A DNA stretch of 34,640 nt from positions 1-34,640 of the forward strand of contig JAQXQU010000213.1 in NCBI GenBank assembly GCA_029101345.1, written 5' to 3'. The position numbers and the translations under genes are program-made. The notes beneath the pieces were generated by a model. It was not told where the DNA came from and ran no database searches. It worked only from the letters and a program-made list of their open reading frames with translations. Source of the DNA: Erysipelotrichaceae bacterium. GTDB taxonomy: Bacteria; Bacillota_I; Bacilli_A; Erysipelotrichales; Erysipelotrichaceae. Within the stretch, counting starts at the first letter, position 1; every line of letters begins with the position of its first letter. This document shows, piece by piece, positions 19,481 through 26,901 of this stretch.

Positions 19481-19493
19481 GGGAGGATTCAAC

Positions 19494-20297
19494 ATGGGAA
19501 TCTTTGATCTGTTAAGTGGTAAGGAAGATCTCCGCAAGGGTGGCAGTGATTGTCAATTCAACGGCTACCTTGAAGATTACTTTGATTCTCTGGAGGAGGG
19601 ACCAGTCAAGGAAGTGCTGGGAGCTCTGTTCGCTAAAGACAACAGTCTGAAAATTATCGTTAAGCTTTACCTTGGAGTTTCAAAGAATTCCATCTCCAAT
19701 GCCATTATTCGCTATAAGGACATCTTCAAGTTCGAGAATAAGGCAATGGCCATTCCTTATATTGTCTATGGCAAAAAGGATGGCAAGGAAAAGGCTTTGA
19801 TTCTGGTGGATGATGATTATATCTATGCCAAAGGTCTCTACTATTCCCTGACTGAACCGGCAAGTGCTTTCCAGGAGGTCAAGAATGACTGTGTTGCCCT
19901 TGATTTTTCAAACAAGGAATTAATACTTGATGTTTATGACGCACTCTTTTACAAAAGAGCTGGTCAGATTCAAAGGGATATTGACAAGCGCTATTTCGCT
20001 GATTATGATTCCTCATTTGCCAAGGCTTTGGCCTTATCGAAGGATATTGGCGATAGTTGCCTGGAAGGAGCAGCTAATGCGGATGATAAGGAAGAATATA
20101 TCAGAAGCTGTGTTGCCAAGTGGTTCCTGATCAAGAAATTTGTCTATGTCCAATATATGGTTGACAAGGACATCCTGGCTAGCCGCCATGAAGGAAATGT
20201 CAAGCAGCAAAGAAACAAAGCGAAGGAAAATGCCGATGCTATCAGATTCACATCAGTGTCGGACATGTGGCGCTATCGCAGTTATCAGAAGGGTTAG
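19494..20297 (+). CDS. unknown cytosolic protein
   Basis: 267 residues, start supported by GGGAGGA. There is no signal peptide and no membrane segment. The first half is mixed alpha/beta, with two strand-like stretches IPYIVYGKKDGKEKALILVDDDYIYAKGLYYSL. The second half is helical and charged, with LFYKRAGQIQRDIDKRYF and a basic C-terminus. I recognise no domain. The gene has its own promoter and leader hairpin and a terminator that overlaps its stop codon. It lies immediately before the XpaC-AAA group on the same strand, which suggests, but does not show, a shared role. Confidence 0.7.
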   Translation: MGIFDLLSGKEDLRKGGSDCQFNGYLEDYFDSLEEGPVKEVLGALFAKDNSLKIIVKLYLGVSKNSISNAIIRYKDIFKFENKAMAIPYIVYGKKDGKEKALILVDDDYIYAKGLYYSLTEPASAFQEVKNDCVALDFSNKELILDVYDALFYKRAGQIQRDIDKRYFADYDSSFAKALALSKDIGDSCLEGAANADDKEEYIRSCVAKWFLIKKFVYVQYMVDKDILASRHEGNVKQQRNKAKENADAIRFTSVSDMWRYRSYQKG

Positions 20298-20313
20298 AAA
20301 CCCTTCTTTTTAT
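20287..20313 (+). terminator. rho-independent terminator overlapping the stop of the 19494 gene
   Basis: AGAAGGGTT (20287-20295) and AACCCTTCT (20299-20307) form a perfect nine-base stem with a three-base loop, followed by TTTTATT. The TAG stop (20295-20297) lies at the top of the hairpin. Confidence 0.88.
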
Positions 20314-20321
20314 TAGCTCAT

Positions 20322-20351
20322 TTAATAAATGAATCAATGATGTTGTATAAT
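20322..20351 (+). promoter_or_regulatory. promoter of the XpaC gene, probably leaderless transcript
   Basis: TTAATA (20322-20327) and TATAAT (20346-20351) are 18 bases apart. The ATG at 20359 begins seven bases after the -10 box and no ribosome binding site is present, so the transcript probably starts at or beside the start codon. Confidence 0.5.
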
Positions 20352-20358
20352 GTTAGAT

Positions 20359-21351
20359 ATGAGAAGAAGAAACCAGATTAACATTTTTCCCTTCATTCTG
20401 TTGATATTTATCGCCCCAAGTCTTATCAGTAGCTTGATTGGCGGCCTCTTCTGGGCAATAGAAGCAATATTGCCGTTTGCCATGATCATCTTCATTGGTG
20501 TGATGATTTCCATGACTGTTGCTGGTTCCAAACAGAGCCGCTCCAGCCGCTCATCTACCAGTCGAAATAATAAAGGCAAGAGTTCTGTTCGTGAAAAGAG
20601 CCGCTTTTCCAATCGGGAAATGGCCATGATTGACCGCAAGCTCAAGGACTATTTCGAGAATAATGCATCATTATTGATTGCTGATGACATTGCTTTGACA
20701 ACAGGAAAGGGATTATATACAAGTGTTGATGACCTCTATCTGACCTATCGGGATGAAAGGGTTGTCAAGCTTTCAGAATACAAGCTCTCCTATCGGGAAG
20801 TCTATAATCAGATTACCGATCTGCTTTTGGAATTTGCCAAGGAAGTGCCAGTCAAGGAAAAGGCATCAAAGAAGAAGGAAACAGAAAGTTCTGAAGAAGT
20901 CAAACGGCCTAAGAAGGAAGAGCCAAAGCTTTCAACTGCTGTTGAATATATCAATAGGATTGATACTTTGAACAAGGCTATTCCCAATGAGGAAATTACC
21001 AATGGCCTCTATCAGACCTGTGATCTTTTAAAGCAGATTGATTTGTCCAATAGTGAAAAGAAAAGCGAAAAACTCAAGAAACTCTATGACTACTATCTGC
21101 CAATTCTTGTTAACATCCTGGAAAAATACCATCAGCTTGATTCTTCGCCAATCAAAGGTGAAGAGCTTGAAACCTGCAAGACCCAGTTAATCAAGACCAT
21201 TCTTCTGATCAACCAGGCCCTAAAGACAATCTATTCTTCACTGCATGAAGAAGACTATATGAATCTCAATGCAGATATCACAACTCTGCAGTCATTATTG
21301 AAGAAGGATGGCTTGGTCGATAATCCTTTTGGAGGTGATGATAATGAGTAG
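20359..21351 (+). CDS. XpaC family protein (5-bromo-4-chloroindolyl phosphate hydrolysis protein family)
   Basis: 330 residues. Two hydrophobic helices at about residues 8-26 and 29-53 anchor the protein, then come a Ser/Arg-rich linker and a charged Lys/Glu stretch. The last third has the XpaC hallmark pattern: LYDYYLPILVNILEKYHQL, then helices with LINQALKTIYSSL, then MNLNADITTLQSLLKKDGL. The true role of XpaC is unknown; in many Firmicutes it is next to telA (tellurite/toxic-anion resistance). No telA is seen here; a protein of unknown family and an AAA+ ATPase follow instead. An ATG at 20350 overlaps the -10 box, so I use 20359. It overlaps the next gene by eight bases. Confidence 0.75.
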   Translation: MRRRNQINIFPFILLIFIAPSLISSLIGGLFWAIEAILPFAMIIFIGVMISMTVAGSKQSRSSRSSTSRNNKGKSSVREKSRFSNREMAMIDRKLKDYFENNASLLIADDIALTTGKGLYTSVDDLYLTYRDERVVKLSEYKLSYREVYNQITDLLLEFAKEVPVKEKASKKKETESSEEVKRPKKEEPKLSTAVEYINRIDTLNKAIPNEEITNGLYQTCDLLKQIDLSNSEKKSEKLKKLYDYYLPILVNILEKYHQLDSSPIKGEELETCKTQLIKTILLINQALKTIYSSLHEEDYMNLNADITTLQSLLKKDGLVDNPFGGDDNE

Positions 21352-21922
21352 ACCTGATATCTTTGATCTAGTTGAAGAAGTAGAACGTCAGAAAAAAGCA
21401 CCTGTCAATAACAATCGTGATAGTGATCAGGACATTGATGACCTCTTTTCCATGCTTGATGAAGTGGAAAAGGGAGGCTTTGCAACTATTGATGAAGTCA
21501 GATCCAAAGTCAATGACATCAATGGCAATGATTATGTCAATATCAAACAGGAACCAATATCAAAGTCATTGCGCAATAAGCGTCCCCTTCTGCCTAAGAA
21601 TTATGGGGAATATGATACCCGTTTTGAATGTTTCAAGCGTTTGATTGAAGGTGTCTCCTATGAAGGCAATTCATCAGAATATATTGGCGGTCATCGGGAA
21701 GCACTGGAAAAATACTATCAGGATGCATCTGTCAATTCCCAGAACCTGCAATTGACTATGGGAAGAGTCAATGATGAGATCAACAACTTTGGGCCACGCA
21801 ATACCGTCTATGCCAAGGGCTATTATGATGGCTTATTCTATGTCTTGCAGGCATTGACCAAATCCAAGGAGCTTCTCATGAGCAAGATTACTGTTCGTTT
21901 GAATAAGGCATTGAGGAACTGA
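21344..21922 (+). CDS. unknown protein encoded between XpaC and AAA+ genes
   Basis: 192 residues from the ATG at 21344, preceded by GGAGG (21331-21335); it overlaps the xpaC stop by eight bases. The first 85 residues are acidic and probably disordered (NNNRDSDQDIDDLFSMLDEVEKGG). The rest is likely a helical domain, with YDTRFECFKRLIEGVSYEGNSSEYIGGHREALEKYY and YAKGYYDGLFYVLQALTKSKELL. I know no family. The close coupling on both sides (one base to the AAA+ gene) argues that the three products act together, perhaps with this one as adaptor. Confidence 0.7.
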   Translation: MSRPDIFDLVEEVERQKKAPVNNNRDSDQDIDDLFSMLDEVEKGGFATIDEVRSKVNDINGNDYVNIKQEPISKSLRNKRPLLPKNYGEYDTRFECFKRLIEGVSYEGNSSEYIGGHREALEKYYQDASVNSQNLQLTMGRVNDEINNFGPRNTVYAKGYYDGLFYVLQALTKSKELLMSKITVRLNKALRN

Positions 21923-21923
21923 A

Positions 21924-23912
21924 ATGAAAAGAGATGAAGAAAGACAGAAGCTTCTTGATGAAGTATTGAATAATCGCAGAACCTATTCCAACATCTATGG
22001 TGATTCCATGGATGTTTTGAAAAATACCGAAAGTGAATTGAATGCTCTTTTAAGGGAGAATCAGAAGGAACTTGATAAGCTTACTAGCAATTTCAATTAT
22101 TCTGATGAAGATCTCAATCTCCTCAAAAAGGAAATTGAACAGGACTTCGGTGTCGCCATTGCAGAAACACCCAAGACAGTTGTAATGGGCAAGGCTTCCA
22201 GGGAAGTCTTTGTGACGATTGAAAATGGTCTGAAAGCCAGGATTGTCGGTCAGGATGAAGCCTGCCATAATCTCTGCATTGCCTTTAGAAGGCCATATAT
22301 TGTAGGTTCTGATCCAGCAAAAATCAGAAATTCCATCATTGTCTATGGTTCCAATGGCACTGGCCGTCATAAGATGGTTGAAACCATGGCCAATCTTTTA
22401 AAGGAAAATGGATTAACGACAAATAGTGATATTGTTCATCTTGATATGAGCCGTTATACATCATCATCCCAGGATTCCTTATTCCTGCAGGACCTTTATG
22501 TTGCCTTGAATTCACCTTCGCCAATTGTCATGGTTGAAAGTTTCGAGGAGGCGAGCCCTATCTACAACCGCATGCTAAGTGAACTGGTTCTGCAAGGAAA
22601 ACTGGTCTTAAGCAAGCGTTATAATCTTGTCAATGGTCAGCTTCATGAAGCCTCATCAAAGCTGACCAAGGATGTCATTGATACCATGGCTGGCAATGAT
22701 AAGACTTTGGTCTTTGTCACAGAGCTGAAACCTGCCAAGATGATGGATATCTTTGGCAAGTCCTTTATTGATCATATTGATGATCGCATCTATTGTGAGA
22801 AGCTTTCGATTGAGGCAGTAAATGTCATTATTGAGCAGCTGATTGATGATCTGAAAATCAAATGCACTTCCCAGCTTGAGACAGCACTTCAAGTTGATAG
22901 CTCTTTGAAGTCGTTCCTTGTCAATTCCTATGAGCCTAATGATGGCATTGATTCCATTGCGCCAATCATTGATGAAATCTATAATAGCCTAGTCAATCTG
23001 ACCTTAAGGGAAGGTGATATTGACAGCGTTGAAGTCATTTATAGTGATAAGATCATGGCCAAGTACAACAACAAGGAAGCTGATTTAGGCATTCTTGAGG
23101 ACAATAGCCAGGAAAGAATGGAAATTGAAAAGGAACTTAACGATATCGTTGGTTTGAAGCCAGTCAAGGAATATCTATTAAGCCTGGAAGATCAGGTCAA
23201 GGCCAATGCCTTAAGAAAGAAGAAGGGCTTAAAGACCACAGAAATCTCCAAGCATATGATCTTTACTGGCAATCCTGGTACTGGCAAAACGACAATTGCC
23301 CGGATTGTTTCCCGCATGATGAAAGCCTGTGGCATCCTCAAGCAAGGACAGCTTGTTGAAGTCACCAGAGCAGATCTTGTTGGCAAATATGTTGGCCATA
23401 CTGCTCCACTGACAATGTCAGTCATTCAGTCGGCTTTGGGTGGTGTGCTCTTCATTGATGAAGCCTATTCACTATATCGAGGAAAGGATGATTCCTTTGG
23501 CTTAGAGGCTATTGATACTCTGGTCAAGGCAATGGAAGACCATCGTGATGATCTGATTGTCATTCTGGCAGGCTATTCCAAGGAAATGGCAGACTTCCTG
23601 ACTGCCAATTCCGGTCTAAAGTCCCGTTTTGCCAATCAGATCGAATTCCCTGATTATACAGGTGAGGAACTGATGCTGATAGCCAAATCAATTGCCAAAG
23701 GCAAGGATTATCTCATCAATGATGATATGACACTGCCACTGACTGAATATTTCACTATGATTCAGGCCAAGGCGGAAGCTACCAGTGGCAATGGCCGTCT
23801 AGCCCGTAATGTGGTGGAAGCCGCAATCCTAAAACAATCCAAGCGCATTATGGACAATCCGGATGCTGATCTCAATGTCCTGTTGCCAGAAGACTTCAAT
23901 CTCACACTCTAA
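21924..23912 (+). CDS. two-module AAA+ protein: degenerate Clp-type module fused to active CbxX/SpoVK-type module
   Basis: 662 residues. Residues 1-85 are coiled coil. Residues about 105-360 follow the ClpA/B D2 plan (ARIVGQDEACHNLCIAFRRP, a P-loop position, a Walker B position, then FGKSFIDHIDDRI and a small helical domain). Here the Walker A is GSNGTGRHK (from 142; Lys and Thr lost) and the Walker B is VMVESFEEA in place of a DE pair. Residues about 410-660 are a CbxX/CfqX (SpoVK) domain with intact Walker A GNPGTGKTT (449-457), Walker B GGVLFIDEAYSL (507-518), sensor ILAGYSKEM and arginine finger SGLKSRF. It is probably a hexameric remodelling ATPase that uses the first module for assembly or substrate binding. 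One base separates it from the upstream gene. Confidence 0.85.
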   Translation: MKRDEERQKLLDEVLNNRRTYSNIYGDSMDVLKNTESELNALLRENQKELDKLTSNFNYSDEDLNLLKKEIEQDFGVAIAETPKTVVMGKASREVFVTIENGLKARIVGQDEACHNLCIAFRRPYIVGSDPAKIRNSIIVYGSNGTGRHKMVETMANLLKENGLTTNSDIVHLDMSRYTSSSQDSLFLQDLYVALNSPSPIVMVESFEEASPIYNRMLSELVLQGKLVLSKRYNLVNGQLHEASSKLTKDVIDTMAGNDKTLVFVTELKPAKMMDIFGKSFIDHIDDRIYCEKLSIEAVNVIIEQLIDDLKIKCTSQLETALQVDSSLKSFLVNSYEPNDGIDSIAPIIDEIYNSLVNLTLREGDIDSVEVIYSDKIMAKYNNKEADLGILEDNSQERMEIEKELNDIVGLKPVKEYLLSLEDQVKANALRKKKGLKTTEISKHMIFTGNPGTGKTTIARIVSRMMKACGILKQGQLVEVTRADLVGKYVGHTAPLTMSVIQSALGGVLFIDEAYSLYRGKDDSFGLEAIDTLVKAMEDHRDDLIVILAGYSKEMADFLTANSGLKSRFANQIEFPDYTGEELMLIAKSIAKGKDYLINDDMTLPLTEYFTMIQAKAEATSGNGRLARNVVEAAILKQSKRIMDNPDADLNVLLPEDFNLTL

Positions 23913-23933
23913 GGCGTTCAATACGCCTTTTTG
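23911..23933 (+). terminator. short terminator after the AAA+ gene
   Basis: AAGGCG (23911-23916) pairs with CGCCTT (23924-23929), followed by TTTG. It overlaps the AAA+ stop codon. The tail also contains the next promoter's extended -10, so the region is very compact. Confidence 0.65.
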
Positions 23934-26064: not shown

Positions 26065-26901
26065 ATGCAGTTTGCTGTGTACTTGCTGATGTCGGCAATG
26101 ATTGTCTATATGATGTATCGCAATGTCAAGCTCTTGAAAAGAGCTAAGCATAATCGTCGCTATGTTGAGGCATATGATGCCATTCTCAAGGAGAATCCGG
26201 ATGCCTATAAGCTGGTCAATGATTTTCTAGCTAGCGAAGAACATGAAGAATATATCAATAAGGGTCTCTTGTTAAAGCTTTTGCTGGAAGAAGATGTTGA
26301 AGGCGAAGCCTATAAGGATACGCTAACCAGAATTGATCTGACCCCGCTTTTCTTTGATAAGGGCCATATTAATAAGGAAAAGCTGCAGCTTAATTCTGAT
26401 GCTTTCATGTGGATGATTCTGGCTTTATGCAAAGCTGTGGAATTTGACTTGAGTGATGTGTCTGATGGCTTGATGTCAAAACTGTCAGCCTTTGAAGATT
26501 CCTTGGGCAACCAGCTGGAATACCACCTGGTCAAGGGTGTCTATGAATGTCTTAATGACAAGGGTGAGGGCAAGTTCCTCAGTGACCTCTTGGCTGGTGA
26601 TTATCCTTCATTCATGTATGACAAGCGCATGATCGGCCTTTACAAGCGTTTAGCTGCTGTTGTTTTGGCTTATCGCAACCGTCTTGAAGATGAATACTTC
26701 CAGAATGACCTCTATGAATTTGCCAAGACGACAATGGGCCGTCTGGTAATGAAGGCTTTAGATCTATATGATACTTATATTACCAATGCTGAGATCATTG
26801 AAGACGGCAAAACGGAAGATGTTCTGGAAATTGCTGACCAAGGCAATGAAGAGGCCAATGATCAGAGCAATGAAGATGGTGATGGTCAGGGAGAAGAATG
26901 A
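26065..26901 (+). CDS. membrane-anchored protein of unknown function
   Basis: 278 residues, with a good AGGAGGA ribosome binding site. One N-terminal membrane helix (residues about 2-19) is followed by a basic stop-transfer region (KLLKRAKHNRR), so the remaining helical domain is probably cytosolic. The body has repeating helical segments of about 30 residues, perhaps a TPR-like array. The last 25 residues are highly acidic and polar. The stop overlaps the start of pth by four bases (ATGA). No family recognised. Confidence 0.75.
   Translation: MQFAVYLLMSAMIVYMMYRNVKLLKRAKHNRRYVEAYDAILKENPDAYKLVNDFLASEEHEEYINKGLLLKLLLEEDVEGEAYKDTLTRIDLTPLFFDKGHINKEKLQLNSDAFMWMILALCKAVEFDLSDVSDGLMSKLSAFEDSLGNQLEYHLVKGVYECLNDKGEGKFLSDLLAGDYPSFMYDKRMIGLYKRLAAVVLAYRNRLEDEYFQNDLYEFAKTTMGRLVMKALDLYDTYITNAEIIEDGKTEDVLEIADQGNEEANDQSNEDGDGQGEE

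Follow-up and report, generated by a model that had tools for sequence, protein, structure and literature searches.

An xpaC–U2–AAA+ gene module of an Erysipelotrichaceae bacterium is the separated half of a larger conserved operon that contains telA

Introduction

What does it mean when an xpaC gene, usually thought of as the companion of telA, is followed instead by a gene for a AAA+ ATPase? The question is raised by contig JAQXQU010000213.1 (assembly GCA_029101345.1), a stretch of 34,640 nucleotides, called the window below, from an Erysipelotrichaceae bacterium of the ruminant gut. Here a gene for an unnamed protein (U1) precedes xpaC, a gene for a second unnamed protein (U2) and a gene for a large AAA+ protein. 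An earlier note, made from the sequence alone, proposed that the AAA+ protein stands in TelA's place, with XpaC as anchor, U2 as adaptor and the AAA+ protein as motor. The comparison made here, which includes about 35 further members of the genus, gives a different answer: the locus is the separated half of a larger conserved operon, [U1]-XpaC1-U2-AAA-[XpaC2]-TelA-[LemA-like-TPM]. The window's genome is a 2.2-Mb draft, and several of the genomes compared are fragmentary. The named records of its relatives come mostly from metagenomes of the ruminant gut, under the labels Erysipelotrichaceae or Solobacterium.

XpaC and TelA are widespread proteins that are induced by envelope stress and linked to resistance; we know of no biochemical activity for either. 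The xpaC-yaaN(telA) operon of Bacillus subtilis belongs to the core sigmaW regulon (PMC3498285). In Lactococcus lactis, xpaC-telA1 is part of the CesSR regulon and is raised 10.3- and 3.4-fold on overproduction of membrane proteins, a condition under which the double deletion partly impairs growth (PMC3139573). Enterococcus faecium xpaC has been linked to envelope-stress induction by LiaR (PMC10269926), and a part in forming sub-membrane structures has been proposed for TelA (PMC7824862). A literature search, with the main review of Ter systems (doi 10.1039/c2mb25239b) outside its reach, gave nothing that joins XpaC, TelA and a AAA+ protein.

The operon and the place of telA

The open reading frames lie as the earlier note had described them (Table 1), with U2 overlapping xpaC by 8 bases and the AAA+ gene beginning one base after U2. 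The tight operon that it saw is also conserved, since the order and spacing of xpaC, U2 and the AAA+ gene recur in nearly every surveyed member of the genus, where they are contiguous except in two loci with a gene fusion, and in many other genera. When 60 relatives were searched with the single sequence, U2 turned up in 32 of them, all among the 35 other members of the genus; a profile search extended it to 20 genera of the order. Among 77 non-redundant loci with module genes, XpaC1 and U2 are adjacent in 66 and form the tightest pair, the genes overlapping or lying at most 20 bases apart in 65 of these. U2 and the AAA+ gene are adjacent in 57, in every case overlapping or within 20 bases. 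XpaC1 and U2 occur without an adjacent AAA+ gene at nine loci, and the AAA+ gene without a detected U2 at seven. Thus, U2 is primarily a partner of XpaC1; the partnership that the note foresaw for it stands, but with the presumed anchor rather than with the motor.

Ten genera of the order have telA directly behind the AAA+ gene or with a second, short xpaC between the two. TelA lies inside the operon at 16 loci in these genera, and about 2 kb downstream at three more. The order is either XpaC1-U2-AAA-TelA or the longer XpaC1-U2-AAA-XpaC2-TelA-LemA-like-TPM, to which the fullest form adds U1 at the front, whilst two outgroups have AAA-XpaC-TelA. The idea that TelA had been swapped for the AAA+ protein is therefore rejected: relatives hold both in one operon. 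A TelA homologue paired with this xpaC elsewhere, which the note itself had named as speaking against its proposal, is the arrangement at the 16 loci. A looser counterpart occurs elsewhere in the class, at locus L334 of another family, where XpaC, TelA and a SpoVK-type AAA+ protein share one cluster, TelA being beside the AAA+ gene and near XpaC. This cluster differs from the window in its order (XpaC, an unknown gene, TelA, AAA+), in the N-domain of its AAA+ protein, and in having VWA/solute-binding and unknown membrane genes that replace U1 and U2.

In the window's genus telA has left the operon for the parAB locus. Flanking sequence is available at 28 TelA loci of the genus: at 26 of these telA directly follows parB, and at the other two a gene for an M28 peptidase directly precedes it. 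The window's genome encodes TelA on another contig (C40; E 1.2e-119), with the M28 peptidase gene between telA and parB in an M28-parB-parA neighbourhood. TelA is thus kept outside the operon in this genome and in most others of the genus. Outside the genus it usually lies in the XpaC/AAA operon or elsewhere rather than by parB.

The association of the two proteins was measured in 392 genomes of the phylum, the AAA+ protein being traced by a profile of its N-half. This half was found in 19 genomes and TelA in 26; all 19 AAA-positive genomes have TelA, against 7 of the 373 AAA-negative ones. Shared ancestry makes the Fisher p values (about 7e-27 for the whole sample and 3e-9 for the listed family members) optimistic, but the direction of the association is clear.

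Two features of these loci may be noted in passing. In the AAA-XpaC-TelA operon of outgroup G036, the AAA+ gene is interrupted by a gene for an IS30-like transposase (L165:4295-5578). At L037-L066 and in other genera, a divergent open reading frame lies 27-161 bases upstream of the module (for example L038:4398-4982, minus strand), and all 25 loci checked have it. It flanks U1 or xpaC1, and in one case the fusion, and is not at that position in the window. Its product, of about 175-340 amino acids, is predicted to be soluble and helical, with weak YtxH/apolipoprotein-like matches, and is possibly a further partner of the module.

XpaC1 is a separate paralogue

The window's XpaC matches PF10112 (Halogen_Hydrol, XpaC) over residues 173-310 with 38.2 bits, above the cut-off of 29.8, though many XpaC proteins of the genus score below that cut-off. 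Hydropathy peaks of up to 2.46 within residues 5-58 predict N-terminal membrane segments, which agrees with the role of membrane anchor given to it by the earlier note. A tree of the C-terminal domain was built from 45 long XpaC1 proteins, 8 short XpaC2 proteins encoded beside TelA, and two ungrouped paralogues. One branch, with support 100/99, parts all 45 XpaC1 from all 8 XpaC2. The two ungrouped paralogues fall on the XpaC1 side, and the window's protein groups with XpaC1. It is therefore not of the TelA-adjacent type but a distinct paralogue. What XpaC1 has in addition is a domain of about 80 amino acids, placed after the membrane segments and before the helical domain. XpaC2 was not detected in genomes of the genus by the PF10112 search, a result that depends on the sensitivity of the profile.

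The XpaC-TelA operons of Bacillus and Lactococcus are among the closest known systems. As there, a PF10112 protein and TelA are encoded in one genome, and in relatives the two lie in one operon. Differences are that the XpaC of the window belongs to another paralogue, which carries an inserted domain, that two unnamed families and a AAA+ protein with two ATPase-type regions come in addition, and that TelA is detached in the genus.

Two genus members carry a third XpaC-like paralogue of about 333 amino acids with a different inserted domain (L170:5524-6525 and L171:4757-5755); in L170 it adjoins a gene for a PreP-like M16 peptidase.

The AAA+ protein

The note had called the AAA+ protein a remodelling ATPase, and its C-half does bear the marks of one. 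It gives AAA and AAA_lid_6 Pfam matches, and motifs together with model scores place it in the SpoVK/CbbX/EccA higher-order clade. In 57 full-length proteins, the Walker A, Walker B, pore YVGxT, sensor-1 GY and sensor-2 motifs of this half are present in 55-57. Features described for the clade (PMC10659427) are present too: the sensor-1 GY in 56, NSGL[KR]SR, with its Asn upstream of the arginine finger, in 46, and the sensor-2 GN[GA]R in all 57. The matches to SpoVK (TIGR02881, 306.7 bits), CbbX (TIGR02880, 243.4 bits) and EccA (TIGR03922, 258.8 bits) are strong, with E values of 1e-72 to 1e-92, but all lie below the equivalog cut-offs of 422.95, 459.25 and 466.65, and we accordingly count the protein as a member of the clade distinct from these three. 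In the literature, ATPases of this clade are described as dedicated chaperones whose N-domains vary (PMC10659427).

The N-half is of another kind. It resembles the second ATPase ring of ClpB/ClpC (E about 1e-8 against solved structures), yet a strict Walker A, GxxxxGK[ST], is found in 1 of the 57 proteins, the window's version being degenerate. This half sets the protein apart from EccA, which has tetratricopeptide repeats, and from SpoVK, which has a short N-domain; its degenerate Walker A and an active ring of another AAA clade set it apart from ClpB/ClpC. A further protein with SpoVK-type domains was seen in genus member G009 (L172:4416-6803), in this case two of them joined to MORN repeats.

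U1, U2 and a natural fusion

Neither U1 nor U2 of the window, both called unknown in the note, matches a Pfam or NCBIfam family, and a scan of 39 U2 and 15 U1 alignment members gave only scattered weak family matches. Of 61 surveyed genomes, 5 carry U1, and in each it stands directly before xpaC1 or the fusion described below; it also occurs near the module in further genera. The fourth partner that the note had offered as a possibility is therefore real, if optional. AlphaFold2 predicts U1 with a mean predicted local distance difference test score (pLDDT) of 92.7 and a predicted template-modelling score (pTM) of 0.90, as an alpha/beta N-part and a helical C-part; U2 is predicted to be helical, with a well-predicted C-terminal region at about residues 81-192. 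Foldseek gave no convincing relative of either in the PDB (best E 0.57 each) and a best E of 0.17 for U1 among viral models. With VIA-align, the helical bundle of the U1 C-half reaches Z scores of up to 7.3 and U2 of up to 5.4, values that show neither kinship nor a new fold.

Two functions considered for these proteins were not adopted. A CRISPR ancillary nuclease is the one weak VIA-align match of the U1 N-half (Z 5.3, 3.6 Å, 110 residues), and BamHI is among the Foldseek PDB matches with E about 1, but the invariant residues of U1 do not include the D/E-x-K pair of a nuclease. An anti-phage defence system was rejected: PADLOC finds nothing for U1, XpaC1, U2 or TelA and gives weak generic AAA matches for the AAA+ protein, U1, XpaC1 and U2 have no PHROGs match, and no phage record contains U2.

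Two genomes, G004 (96% complete) and G024 (69% complete), encode a 284-amino-acid protein in which U2 is fused to the membrane segments and the inserted domain of XpaC1; U1 overlaps the fusion gene by 4 bases. The PF10112 helical domain, the AAA+ protein and TelA are all undetected in both. These genomes suggest that the parts may divide into two sub-complexes, one made up of U1, U2 and XpaC1's membrane half, the other of TelA, the AAA+ protein and XpaC1's helical half.

A possible mechanism and its alternatives

From the observed gene order and its conservation, the paralogue split, the motifs, the co-occurrence, the fusion and the linked absences we infer the physical contacts, the client and the envelope or stress role of the following scheme. 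The hydrophobic segments at the N-terminus of XpaC1 would hold it in the membrane, with U2 bound to its membrane-proximal cytosolic part and U1, where present, joining this pair. The C-terminal helical domain of XpaC1 would recruit TelA, the AAA+ ring, or both. The AAA+ protein may be a hexamer in which the largely catalytically dead, ClpB-like N-ring docks and the SpoVK/CbbX-type C-ring is active, spending ATP on the remodelling of a dedicated client, most likely TelA-XpaC assemblies beneath the membrane, in the service of envelope maintenance and the stress response. That the core half of the conserved operon carries out ATP-dependent remodelling of TelA-XpaC assemblies at the membrane has, in our estimate, an even chance of being correct. 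A fuller proposal is put forward tentatively, as less likely than not. In it the two-ring protein would be a motor dedicated to taking apart or activating the sub-membrane structures of TelA and XpaC, would work with U1 and U2, and in one genus would be coupled to ParAB chromosome partition through TelA.

Several points weigh against remodelling of TelA-XpaC assemblies. TelA occurs without the AAA+ protein in seven sampled genomes, so the motor is dispensable for TelA function generally. Within one family, both the order of genes and their co-occurrence are confounded by shared ancestry. G024, which has one of the two fusions, is 69% complete, and the position of TelA beside parAB in the genus could reflect a changed job there.

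The client may also be something other than TelA, such as an enzyme of peptidoglycan synthesis or secretion, comparable to MurG for SpoVK or the type VII substrates for EccA, with XpaC1 and U2 just placing the motor at the membrane whilst TelA acts in parallel within the same stress regulon. The clients of clade members are dedicated and unrelated (PMC10659427), and XpaC1-U2 and TelA each occur without the AAA+ protein. However, TelA is present in every sampled genome with the AAA+ protein, both are undetected in the two fusion genomes, and the two genes adjoin in many genera and in another family, which makes this alternative doubtful. The closeness of telA to parB in the genus fits a system recruited to chromosome partition or division, with TelA tying the ParAB complex to the membrane and XpaC1-U2-AAA remodelling the tie. 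Yet the place of TelA outside the genus is usually a different one, and a neighbourhood of par genes near the origin may be a chance relocation fixed by descent; such recruitment seems quite unlikely. Plain synteny, independent genes without a shared complex staying together in one family, would account for a close conservation confined to one order and for the separability of U2 and the AAA+ gene (G355, G357). It is hard to square with the overlapping or nearly overlapping junctions of XpaC1-U2 and U2-AAA across species with different flanking genes, with the XpaC1-N/U2 fusion, or with the linked absence of the AAA+ protein and TelA, and we regard it as very unlikely.

Under the preferred remodelling of TelA-XpaC assemblies, an ATP-driven motor found in the sampled genomes only together with TelA would offer a handle on TelA/XpaC activity. 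Natural fusions and losses reveal which parts belong together, and two unnamed families gain a genomic context and partners that can be tested.

Expression signals and other features of the window

Of the promoter and terminator that the note had assigned to U1, the terminator holds: the hairpin falls at the U1 stop codon. The promoter is doubtful, as its match is weak (9/12) in a region with 25 promoter-like matches against 13.8 expected. The xpaC reading frame could start at 20350 or 20359; the ATG at 20359 is the most likely start because MRRR is the conserved beginning of the protein. In most genus members a TATAAT lies about 7-9 bases before this start, with no Shine-Dalgarno sequence, and the xpaC1 mRNA is accordingly predicted to be leaderless in most of them. 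A -10-like box just before the start codon is also often seen at mnmE (window 23949).

The xpaC1 promoter also carries a conserved TTAGCACTCGTTTA element (for example at L038:5049), which corresponds to one arm of the CIRCE (controlling inverted repeat of chaperone expression) operator and is specific to this promoter in the loci examined. The arm TTAGCACTC has 13 copies in 421 kb of genus loci, where about 3 would be expected anywhere at equal base frequencies. All 13 are upstream of xpaC1, and 12 lie 43-45 bases before its start; the window's own copy is degenerate. Control of xpaC1 through CIRCE by HrcA was considered and set aside: the genomes do have CIRCE sites, but the xpaC1 element fits one arm only.

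Table 1. Features of the module, in window coordinates
Feature	Position	Strand	Remarks
U1 Shine-Dalgarno, GGGAGG	19481..19486	+	read in sequence
U1, 267 amino acids, soluble, unnamed family, fourth component (optional)	19494..20297	+	
Intrinsic terminator-like hairpin at U1 end	20287..20307	+	perfect 9-bp stem and T-run
Degenerate TTAGCACTCGTTTA element upstream of xpaC1	20313..20330	+	weak, by visual comparison
TATAAT -10 element, 7 nt before xpaC1 start	20346..20351	+	predicted leaderless transcript
xpaC1	20359..21351	+	N-terminal membrane segments, inserted domain of ~80 amino acids, helical PF10112 C-terminal domain
U2, 192 amino acids, unnamed mostly helical family, constant XpaC1 partner	21344..21922	+	
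AAA+ protein, 662 amino acids, two ATPase-type regions	21924..23912	+	
AAA+ N-half, ClpB/ClpC-like	21924..23135	+	degenerate Walker A (GSNGTGRH)
AAA+ C-half, intact SpoVK/CbbX/EccA-type AAA domain	23136..23909	+	GNPGTGKTT, FIDEAY, YVGHT, GY
Terminator-like hairpin 3' of the AAA+ gene	23911..23929	+	

A scan of the window found no RNA elements or tRNAs. In the gap between tatD and pth, positions 26065-26901 encode a protein of 278 amino acids that has no above-cut-off Pfam match and whose position is kept throughout the genus.

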